From positions 62,001 through 126,000 of the forward strand of contig NZ_JAJLRA010000013.1 in NCBI RefSeq assembly GCF_020991365.1: a stretch of 64,000 nucleotides of DNA. Direction: 5' to 3'. The translations under genes were made by a program, and so were the position numbers. The notes under the pieces are model-generated. The model saw only the letters and a list, made by a program, of their open reading frames with translations. It did no database searches and was not told where the DNA came from. Source of the stretch: Streptacidiphilus sp. ASG 303. GTDB taxonomy: Bacteria; Actinomycetota; Actinomycetes; Streptomycetales; Streptomycetaceae. Position 1 is the first letter of the stretch; each line of letters opens with the position of its first letter. Shown here in pieces: positions 48,105-50,253 of the stretch.

Positions 48105-48992
48105 TTACTGCTTCAGCTCGGGGACGTCGGCCGAGGCGGACAGCCACTGGTCGGTGATCCTCTTCAGCGTGCCGTCGGCCTTCAGGTCGGCGAGGGCGCG
48201 GTTCACGCAGGCGGTCAGTCCGCTGCCCTTCTTCAGGAGCAGGCCGAACTCCTCGGGCGTGCCGCCGCTGTAGCCGAACTGGCCGAGGATCCTGCCGTGC
48301 TCCAGCTCGGCGCCGGCCAGGTAGAACACGGTGGGCATGTCGGTGACGATCGCGTCGATCTGGCCGTTCTGCAGGGCGCGGATCTCGTCGTTGGTGGTGT
48401 TGAAGACGCTGGGCCGGTGCGAGGGCCCGATCCGGTCGAGCACGGCCTGGTAGCTGGTGGTGGCGACCTGCACGCCGATCCTGGCGCCCTTGAGCCCGGC
48501 CAGCGACGCGGTCTTCGCGTACGGCGACCCGTCCAGCACGAGGACGCCCTGGCTGGCCGTGTAGTAGCTGGTGGAGAAGTCCACCGCCTTGGCGCGCTGG
48601 GGGGTGACGGAGATCTGGTTGATGTCGAAGTCGAAGTTCTTGGCGCCCGGGGCGTAGGAGTTGTCGAAGGGTTCGACGACCCACGTCACCCGGCTGCGGT
48701 CGAAGCCGAGCTTCCCGGCCACCGCGTACGCGACCGCACTCTCGAAGCCCTTGCCGTTGGCGGGCTTGTTGTCCTGGAACCAGGGCGCGTAGGCCGGGGA
48801 GTCCGTCGCGACGGTCAGCCGGCCCCTGCGGTACAGGTGCGGGCTGTCCGGCGTGCAGGCGGAGGCGGCCTTGCCGGAGGGTGCGGCCGCGGCAGACGCG
48901 GGCTTCGCCTCGGGCTGGGGGGCGCACGCGGAGGCCGCCAGGGCGAGGGCGGCGCCCGCGCATGCGGAGACAAGGGTACGGAGACGGAGCAC
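48105..48992 (-). CDS. Polar amino-acid ABC substrate-binding lipoprotein
   Basis: A 295-residue family 3 solute-binding protein. The signal peptide LRTLVSACAGAALALAASAC ends in a lipobox-like ASAC, so it is probably lipid-anchored outside the cell. The ligand lobes show RGRLTVATDSPAYAPWF, FDFDINQISVTPQRAKAVDF and GQIDAIVTDMPTVFYL. GTG 48992 follows AAGGAAA; a GTG five codons upstream is in frame. A leaderless leader peptide of sulfur-gene type lies 66 bases upstream, pointing to a sulfur-containing amino acid. Confidence 0.93.
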   Translation of the reverse strand: MLRLRTLVSACAGAALALAASACAPQPEAKPASAAAAPSGKAASACTPDSPHLYRRGRLTVATDSPAYAPWFQDNKPANGKGFESAVAYAVAGKLGFDRSRVTWVVEPFDNSYAPGAKNFDFDINQISVTPQRAKAVDFSTSYYTASQGVLVLDGSPYAKTASLAGLKGARIGVQVATTSYQAVLDRIGPSHRPSVFNTTNDEIRALQNGQIDAIVTDMPTVFYLAGAELEHGRILGQFGYSGGTPEEFGLLLKKGSGLTACVNRALADLKADGTLKRITDQWLSASADVPELKQ

Positions 48993-49057
48993 GGGGGTTT
49001 CCTTCACAGGGGAGTCCGGAGAGGGACGGTACGGGGGGAGGGGCCTGGGTCGCGCGC

Positions 49058-49132
49058 TCAGCGGCACAGGTCGGCGGCACAGCGCACGTGGTCCACGTGG
49101 CGGCGGCGTACCAGCGGGAAGGGTCCGGACAT
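49058..49132 (-). CDS. Leader peptide (RRHVD...CR type) ahead of the ABC transporter
   Basis: A 24-codon ORF, beginning MSGPFPLV and continuing RRRHVDHVRCAADLCR. It matches the pattern of putative leader peptides (RRHVDL..R...A.CR) annotated ahead of sulfur and cysteine genes in Streptomyces. Seven bases separate its ATG from the -10 element, so the transcript is expected to start at the ATG (leaderless). Two Cys codons near the end and a CACGTG-gac-CACGTG stem inside the ORF suit Cys-dependent ribosome stalling. Confidence 0.8.
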   Translation of the reverse strand: MSGPFPLVRRRHVDHVRCAADLCR

Positions 49133-49207: not shown

Positions 49208-50062
49208 TCAGCTGGTGAGACGGAAGACCGGGTCGCCCTCACGCAGACCGAACAGTGCGGACGCGGAGCCGCCGCGCACCACGAGTTCGGCGAAGCCGAT
49301 TCCCGAACTCCCGACGGTGATCCCGGGCTCGCCGTACGGCACGTCGGGCAGCCGGTCGTAGCGGCGCACCAGGACGCTCCGGCCGTCGCGCCGGCTGCGG
49401 ACGGGCAGGGCGTCCGCGCCGCCCGGTCCGTCGGCGCCGTCCGCGCCGGGGAGGGCCGCGGCGGGCCGGTCCAGCTTGCAGTTGCCGAAGTTGTCCACGA
49501 CGGCGACCCGCACCTCCGCGGGCTCCGGGGCCTGGACGGCGTGCGGCTGCGCGGGGACCGGGCGGCCGTCGACCAGCCAGCGGGCCAGCAGCGGCGCGTA
49601 CCAGAGGCTGCGGAACTGGGTCCGGGCGATCTCCTCCACCTCGGCCGGACCGAGCCGCGCCCACTGCGCCGCGGCGGCCTCCAGGACCTCGCGCACGTCG
49701 GTGACCTGCACCTCCTCCAGGCCCAGGTAGGCCGCAAGCGGGGCGAGGACCCGGGGGTTCAGCGTGCTGACGACCAGGTGCTCCCCGTGGCGGAACCAGC
49801 AGAACGGCGCGCCGTTGGGCCAGTGGCCGTCCCGGGGGGCGATGTTGACCAGCACCACGGTCGGGTGGGTCGGCCCGCCGGTCAGGCCGGTGGAGCGCAG
49901 CAGGTCGAGCAGGGTGAGAGCGGCGGCGCCCTCCGGGTCCGGGCCGGCCAGCGGGAGGAGGCTCGGCGTGGCGCCGAAGAGCGCGGCGATCCGGGCGGAC
50001 TGCCGGGCCACCGCGTTGGGGTCGGCGCAGTCGGTGAGGGAGATGACGGGGGGACAGGACAT
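49208..50062 (-). CDS. Divergent SAM hydrolase / chlorinase-fluorinase (DUF62) family protein
   Basis: A 284-residue protein resembling S-adenosylmethionine hydroxide adenosyltransferases, which split SAM into adenosine and methionine. The N-terminal PPVISLTDCADPNAVAR aligns with the LTDFG start, and the C-terminal domain has VDNFGNCKL and GSSGIGFAELV. The usual central DPGVG is replaced by VNIAPRDG, so the active site differs from characterised enzymes and the reaction is uncertain. ATG 50062 follows GAAGGG. Expression looks attenuator-controlled by a Met-rich leader. The sulfur amino-acid ABC genes lie directly downstream but have their own promoter. Confidence 0.65.
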   Translation of the reverse strand: MSCPPVISLTDCADPNAVARQSARIAALFGATPSLLPLAGPDPEGAAALTLLDLLRSTGLTGGPTHPTVVLVNIAPRDGHWPNGAPFCWFRHGEHLVVSTLNPRVLAPLAAYLGLEEVQVTDVREVLEAAAAQWARLGPAEVEEIARTQFRSLWYAPLLARWLVDGRPVPAQPHAVQAPEPAEVRVAVVDNFGNCKLDRPAAALPGADGADGPGGADALPVRSRRDGRSVLVRRYDRLPDVPYGEPGITVGSSGIGFAELVVRGGSASALFGLREGDPVFRLTS

Positions 50063-50093: not shown

Positions 50094-50123
50094 CAAAAAG
50101 GACCCTCCGTTTCCGGAGGGTCC
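50094..50123 (-). terminator. Intrinsic terminator in the leader of the SAM hydrolase-like gene
   Basis: Minus strand: GGACCCTCCG-GAAA-CGGAGGGTCC followed directly by TTTTTGTTG (10-bp stem, stable tetraloop, U-tract), ending 32 bases before the gene's ATG. A transcript stopping here would not include the gene. Confidence 0.85.
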
Positions 50124-50144
50124 GTCGCGTCGTGCGCGCACACG

Positions 50145-50160
50145 GCTTCGCTAGCGAAGC
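50145..50160 (-). promoter_or_regulatory. Perfect 16-bp palindrome at the leader ORF stop codon
   Basis: GCTTCGCTAGCGAAGC (8-bp arms) contains the TAG stop of the Met-rich leader peptide and lies 22 bases before the terminator stem. It can act as a pause hairpin that couples RNA polymerase to the translating ribosome. Confidence 0.65.
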
Positions 50161-50216
50161 GCCTCCGGTGTCGGGGGCATCATTCGCATCATGGCGGACG
50201 CGGCGGTGTGCGGCAT
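50151..50216 (-). CDS. Methionine-rich leader peptide
   Basis: A 21-residue ORF starting at ATG 50216: MPHTAASA, then MMRMM, then PPTPEALR and TAG. Five of 21 residues are Met, four clustered. Only seven bases separate the -10 element from the ATG, so it should be read from a leaderless mRNA. The codons for PEA (ccg-gag-gcg) carry CCGGAGG, which can pair with CCTCCGG in the 5' arm of the terminator. The arrangement is that of a ribosome-mediated attenuator reading Met-tRNA supply. Confidence 0.7.
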   Translation of the reverse strand: MPHTAASAMMRMMPPTPEALR

Positions 50217-50223
50217 GCGGCGA

Positions 50224-50253
50224 AATATAGCACCGCCGGATATCGCGCGTTCA
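50224..50253 (-). promoter_or_regulatory. Promoter of the Met-rich leader / SAM hydrolase-like gene
   Basis: Minus-strand -10 TATATT (50229-50224) in an AT-rich patch, with a weak -35 TGAACG (50253-50248) at 18-base spacing. Predicted start at or next to A of ATG 50216. Confidence 0.6.

Follow-up and report, generated by a model that had tools for sequence, protein, structure and literature searches.

A Conserved Leaderless Leader ORF and Candidate Methionine Attenuator Upstream of a SAM-Hydrolase-Fold Gene in Actinobacteria

Introduction

Transcription attenuators that depend on a translated leader are known in Actinobacteria upstream of trp, leu and ilv genes, where a short, often leaderless ORF carrying regulatory codons is combined with a terminator and a competing antiterminator (PMC1262725; PMC8079986). 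For methionine, the literature searched contains hardly any description of a ribosome-mediated attenuator, and in a survey of Actinobacteria published in 2005, methionine operons were reported to have no conserved RNA structure in front of them (PMC1262725). A leaderless, Met-containing leader peptide, metL, has been proposed in front of metNIQ in Streptomyces lividans, its authors finding no typical Rho-independent terminator (PMC8079986). Other cis-regulation of Met and SAM genes in this group of organisms is represented in Rfam by SAM riboswitches, T-boxes and the Streptomyces-metH and Streptomyces-metK RNAs, and NCBIfam holds a short Cys-type “putative leader peptide”, the cis_reg_atten family NF042934.

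The element analyzed here shares the anatomy of the trp, leu and ilv attenuators but differs from them in that its regulatory codons are methionine codons arranged around an invariant CGA. When the window (the whole 64,000-nucleotide stretch analyzed) was searched with the Rfam covariance models, no family reached its gathering score, the SAM riboswitches, T-boxes and Streptomyces-metH/-metK RNAs included; weak matches such as Phe_leader were rejected as reflecting a generic leader-plus-terminator shape. The Met-rich leader peptide (P0002) had no match in an NCBIfam search that included NF042934, whereas a peptide similar to that family precedes the next operon of the locus. The metL leader differs as well, being a 29-aa Cys/Met peptide of unrelated sequence in front of another gene. 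No published description of the element was found in the literature searched, which covered few subscription journals.

Organization of the Locus

A first-pass annotation of this DNA had reported a −10 element, a seven-nucleotide gap, a 21-codon ORF, a palindrome, a terminator and a downstream gene; all were confirmed on the minus strand, at the coordinates that follow.

50224..50229, minus strand: −10 element TATATT, a TANNNT box with the leader geometry found in 56/56 leaders.
50151..50216, minus strand: leaderless leader ORF of 21 codons, MPHTAASAMMRMMPPTPEALR followed by the stop, from the sole correctly spaced start in frame with the motif.
50178..50192, minus strand: candidate stall-site codons ATG ATG CGA ATG ATG (codons 9–13), from the NTG CGA ATG NTG common to all clades and the ribosome walk.
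50154..50186, minus strand: segment 1:2 hairpin, GCGAA..GCC.CC with GG.GGC..UUCGC, from the consensus fold, with −12.5 kcal/mol in the window sequence, which sequesters the antiterminator.
50162..50168, minus strand: segment 2, CCGGAGG, the antiterminator strand in leader codons 17–19, from conservation and position-specific pairing.
50145..50160, minus strand: 16-nt palindrome GCTTCGCTAGCGAAGC spanning the TAG stop, with which UUCGC could pair instead, kept in Streptomycetaceae and Actinospica only.
50113..50119, minus strand: segment 3, CCTCCGG, the terminator 5′ arm and partner of segment 2; CCTCCG is invariant and the 3′ arm takes G.U.
50100..50123, minus strand: intrinsic terminator hairpin with a 10-bp stem, GGACCCTCCG/GAAA/CGGAGGGTCC, −21.6 kcal/mol, at a similar distance past the ATG in all clades.
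50095..50099, minus strand: terminator U-tract TTTTT, from the sequence.
49208..50062, minus strand: regulated gene, a protein of the SAM hydroxide adenosyltransferase/fluorinase fold, from PF20257, an AlphaFold2 model and structure matches.
49058..49132, minus strand: second leader peptide, Cys type, MSGPFPLVRRRHVDHVRCAADLCR followed by the stop, before an ABC transporter; NF042934 below cut-off, strict pattern found in relatives.
48105..49007, minus strand: amino-acid-type ABC transporter substrate-binding protein with an inferred start, from domain matches and neighborhood.

Exactly 7 nt separate TATATT from the leader ATG at 50216, and the 127-nt leader RNA folds 5.7 standard deviations better than shuffled sequences (z −5.7); the arrangement is not a product of chance. 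ATG makes up 5/21 leader codons, compared with 10/2110 codons in five likely genes of the window.

Distribution and Linkage to the Downstream Gene

A search with the downstream protein returned relatives in Streptomyces, Kitasatospora, Streptacidiphilus, Actinospica, Kribbella, Jiangella and Catellatospora. The upstream leader is present at all of them but one (L043), where the gene match covers residues 124–284 only and lies inside the contig. In total, 56 distinct sequences, drawn from Streptomycetaceae, Actinospica, Kribbella, Jiangella and Catellatospora, have the leader in front of this gene. Among 395 Streptomycetaceae genomes, the full-length gene occurs in 15, and the identical 15 bear the leader element, each scoring strongly against a covariance model built for it (E 1.8e-30 or better in the 395 searched); none was found elsewhere in these genomes beyond the 15 real loci. 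The exact pattern ATGATGCGAATGMTG is present in 16 of the 395 and its reversed form in none of them; in 15 of the 16 it belongs to the true element, and in the last (L078) it stands bare, in a different context and with none of the element around it. The strongest of the weak covariance-model matches (L106) was rejected as a tRNA-like stretch followed by a terminator, and no relative of the element was found in plasmids and viral contigs.

A further genome (G206) has a truncated gene, with neither the motif nor a covariance-model match. L043 and G206 are both Kitasatospora-group records, possibly of one strain, in which the N-terminal half of the SAM-fold gene is missing and no leader is present. 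The leader of another locus (L037) is frameshifted, probably by a sequencing error, because the length of its downstream gene match is not a multiple of three either.

The Leader ORF and Its Codons

In 56/56 leaders, the only ATG or GTG located 6–8 nt past the TANNNT box is in frame with the motif. The spacing from box to start is 7 nt in 52 of the 56 (range 6–8), and the distance from start to motif is always 24, 27, 30, 33 or 36 nt; in the Streptomycetaceae relatives, the −10 element is mostly of the form TGnTAnnnT. Alignments show that insertions have lengths in multiples of three in the 5′ portion of the ORF but often not outside it, and the stop codons lie 21–36 nt past the invariant ATG, the frameshifted leader excepted. 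As judged by this comparison of sequences, frame and geometry are conserved, which supports a leader ORF that is translated and leaderless.

The Streptomycetaceae peptide is rich in methionine, with the consensus M-x-H-T-x-x-L-A-M-M-R-M-M-P-x-x-x-E-A-L-R, and its core is retained as [ML]-R-M-[ML] in the leader peptides of every clade. Internal Met codons number at least four in Streptomycetaceae and Actinospica (every Streptomycetaceae leader has four, no exception), three to five in Jiangella and one or two in Kribbella and Catellatospora. The Met cluster, on whose conservation the first-pass annotation had staked its proposal, is accordingly kept in Streptomycetaceae and Actinospica. Catellatospora reads CTG CGA ATG ATG, and one Kribbella leader (L031) reads CTG CGA ATG CTG, with a single internal Met left.

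Directly 5′ of the invariant ATG, the CGA codon (codon 11 in the window, 50184–50186) is conserved in 56/56 leaders, no less strictly than any Met codon, although it is rare among the genes of the window, where it accounts for 5/236 Arg codons (2%). Conservation for base pairing was considered: CGA takes part in GCGAA:UUCGC in Streptomycetaceae and, to some extent, in Jiangella. In Kribbella and Catellatospora a matching strand is not evident, so that base pairing does not by itself account for CGA. In most bacteria, CGA is decoded by an inosine-34 tRNA, and in yeast, codon pairs that contain CGA slow the ribosome. CGA-CGA pairs have been dealt with specifically (PMC6301793). In the leader, CGA may serve to hold the ribosome over the sensing Met codon.

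Terminator and Competing Antiterminator

The terminator starts 52–64 nt past the invariant ATG in all clades, its position having been set by hand for Catellatospora (L021) and L035. The 5′ arm of the terminator pairs best with a segment that begins at +12 to +16 from the same ATG, or at +23 in Catellatospora. The pairing sequences themselves differ by clade: CGGAGG:CCUCCG in Streptomycetaceae, GUGCGG:CCGCAC in Jiangella, and GCGGGAGG and variants in Kribbella. The mean pairing energies at that position are −17.3, −16.4 and −14.8 kcal/mol in Streptomycetaceae, Jiangella and Kribbella, respectively, and when strands are swapped between Streptomycetaceae and Jiangella the pairing falls to about −11 kcal/mol, versus about −17 for the cognate strands. 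The complementarity of CCGGAGG and CCTCCGG noticed in the first-pass annotation is thus kept, as CGGAGG/CCUCCG, in Streptomycetaceae and Actinospica, where CGGAGG is invariant in 30/30 aligned leaders, and the other clades realize the same architecture with other sequences.

In shuffling controls, p per sequence is about 0.015 in Streptomycetaceae, 0.12–0.15 in Kribbella and Jiangella and 0.24 in Catellatospora; because these values are weak outside Streptomycetaceae, the case between clades rests on position and replacement and not on raw significance. Clade alignments and consensus folds gave no base-by-base covariation within clades, the segment 1:2 hairpin included. The pairing strands are nearly invariant, which makes covariation within clades uninformative, and replacement between clades is relied on instead. 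Within Streptomycetaceae, the CCUCCG 5′ arm is invariant and the 3′ arm of the terminator tolerates wobble; a second partner for the 5′ arm is therefore indicated. Overall, the antiterminator is strong in Streptomycetaceae, moderate in Jiangella and Kribbella and weak in Catellatospora.

The motif is enclosed by a stem in each clade, again from differing sequences: UACGCCGC:GCGGCGUA in Kribbella (L022), GGCCAG:CUGGCC in Jiangella (L024), CAGUCU:AGACUG in Catellatospora (L021) and GCACAC:GUGUGC in most Streptomycetaceae.

Dependence on Ribosome Position

The choice between the two structures was followed in silico by a ribosome walk, in which the leader is masked to 12 nt past the A-site codon and the RNA is folded before the 3′ arm of the terminator has emerged, with the probability that the 5′ arm is captured as the readout. 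For the window, the probability of antitermination is 0.95 with the ribosome at codons 10–13 (Met-Arg-Met-Met), 0.48 at codon 14, 0.14 at the stop and 0.12 with no ribosome, and the values at codons 11–13 are little affected when the edge of the footprint is shifted within 10–14 nt. With the A site at the invariant ATG or at either of the codons next to it, it is 0.76–0.89 in Streptomycetaceae, Actinospica, Kribbella and Jiangella and 0.73–0.75 in Catellatospora, compared with 0.07–0.29 for RNA with no ribosome. It drops two codons past the ATG in Streptomycetaceae, Actinospica and Jiangella and later in Kribbella and Catellatospora. When ranked among the values for shuffled spacers, these probabilities stand at 0.01–0.08, and at 0.33 in Catellatospora.

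At equilibrium, the complete terminator of the window (−21.6 kcal/mol) is more stable than the antiterminator (−12.7 kcal/mol) and the switch must therefore be kinetic, as also holds in other attenuators. Together with the comparison of clades, this in silico dependence on ribosome position supports the attenuator anatomy and the trp/leu-type logic that had been proposed for the locus.

The Regulated Protein and Its Gene Neighborhood

Along its full length, the AlphaFold2 model of the regulated protein (pLDDT 90) resembles SAM hydroxide adenosyltransferases and halogenases related to them, with Z up to 19.3 (18.3 to 2wr8). The protein shares its fold and C-terminal domain, matched by PF20257, with the SAM hydroxide adenosyltransferase/fluorinase family (DUF62, PF01887/PF20257), but differs from it in that the domain search found no match to the family’s N-terminal Pfam domain and in that two triad positions align with other residues. 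The water-activating Asp-Arg-His triad of the family is D68-R75-H127 (PMC4859513); in a profile alignment that includes canonical members from Actinobacteria and is weak in the N-terminal part, the Asp position is occupied by Ile74/Asn73 and the His position by Phe150. Judged from this alignment, two residues of the SAM-hydrolase triad, Asp and His, appear to be absent from the regulated protein. The earlier suggestion that the gene recycles methionine from SAM therefore finds no support and recycling is unproven; the gene should best be called a SAM-hydrolase-fold gene of unproven function. Distant relatives (L044–L064, 27–37% identity) occur mostly in genomes of Patescibacteria (CPR) and retain the N-x-APR and QFRS motifs.

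In Catellatospora, the leader heads a run of genes on the same strand that includes metK and metG; as the genome has two full copies of each, those of the operon are extra copies. The order at L021:4995-10822 is leader, SAM-fold gene, second metK, a weakly PheT-like protein, a methyltransferase, a protein resembling TIR plus pentapeptide repeats (by eye) and second metG. Extra copies of metK and metG would be expected targets of a Met-tRNA sensor, on the evidence of one genome, because 200 other genomes of the same family gave no further homologue. The operon could also confer resistance to a Met analogue or to an inhibitor of MetRS. In Streptomycetaceae and Actinospica, the next operon encodes an amino-acid ABC transporter, and by a strict pattern its Cys-type leader, which scores below the NF042934 cut-off, precedes it in at least 22 of 31 relatives. 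The second metK and metG of Catellatospora and this Cys-type leader support a Met/SAM/sulfur theme of the locus.

Proposed Mechanism and Alternatives

Transcription would start at or adjoining the leader AUG. With sufficient Met-tRNA, the ribosome would pass AUG AUG CGA AUG AUG, reach the stop and cover CCGGAGG, so that the terminator forms and the gene is off. Slow decoding of these codons, most likely for lack of charged Met-tRNA and with the rare CGA helping to hold the ribosome, would leave the 5′ arm of the 1:2 hairpin masked and CCGGAGG free; the latter would then capture CCUCCGG as it emerges, no terminator would form and the SAM-hydrolase-fold gene would be transcribed. RNA without translation would also terminate, because the 1:2 hairpin hides CCGGAGG. 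That the element is a ribosome-mediated transcription attenuator is considered highly probable. For the full claim, in which Met-tRNA is in addition the signal, we estimate a probability of about 0.68. The idea that Met codons act as the sensor, taken from the first-pass annotation, draws support from the Met/SAM/sulfur theme; its plainest form, sensing by the number of Met codons, is not supported, because CGA is invariant and L031 retains a single internal Met codon.

This raises the question of what stalls the ribosome. The same attenuator could respond to a nascent [ML]-R-M-[ML] peptide that, with CGA, arrests in the presence of SAM, an antibiotic or some other small molecule, and not to a lack of Met-tRNA. 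The invariant unit is indeed NTG CGA ATG NTG and not a number of Met codons, the regulated protein has a SAM-binding fold, and the antitermination window covers these very codons, such that any stall there would work. Such an arrest is nevertheless rather unlikely, given the metG and metK of the Catellatospora operon and the four internal Met codons that Streptomycetaceae keep; no known arrest peptide was matched, although this was judged without comparison to an arrest-peptide library. Sensing of arginine or of general translation speed through CGA, with the Met codons as bystanders, would account for a codon that is ubiquitous in the leaders and rare in the genes of the window, but it is the least credible reading, for the stall window contains a single Arg codon and is enriched in Met codons, and the operon partners relate to Met and SAM and not to Arg.

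A riboswitch that works independently of the ribosome, in which UGCGAAUG and the surrounding stems bind a ligand and the ORF is incidental, would fit the strong nucleotide conservation beyond the codons and the enclosing stem that every clade forms from different sequences. It is made improbable by the ORF, in frame with its leaderless start in 56/56 leaders, by the folded RNA, which leaves the terminator free when no ribosome is present, and by the lack of an Rfam match to SAM or other riboswitches. Returning to stalling at the Met codons, a broader proposal is put forward only tentatively, as one more doubtful than not: the invariant NTG-CGA-AUG-NTG may program a stall that reads Met/SAM status and controls an uncharacterized SAM-fold enzyme, either via a Met-tRNA step held by CGA or via SAM acting on the nascent [ML]RM[ML].

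Implications

An element of this kind, with its terminator, antiterminator and leaderless start, is conserved across orders and tied to one uncharacterized gene. It thereby offers a functional lead for a gene family whose distant relatives extend to the Patescibacteria, and an accessible system for the coupling of leaderless-ORF translation to transcription and for the way in which a CGA codon may tune stalling at the codon next to it.
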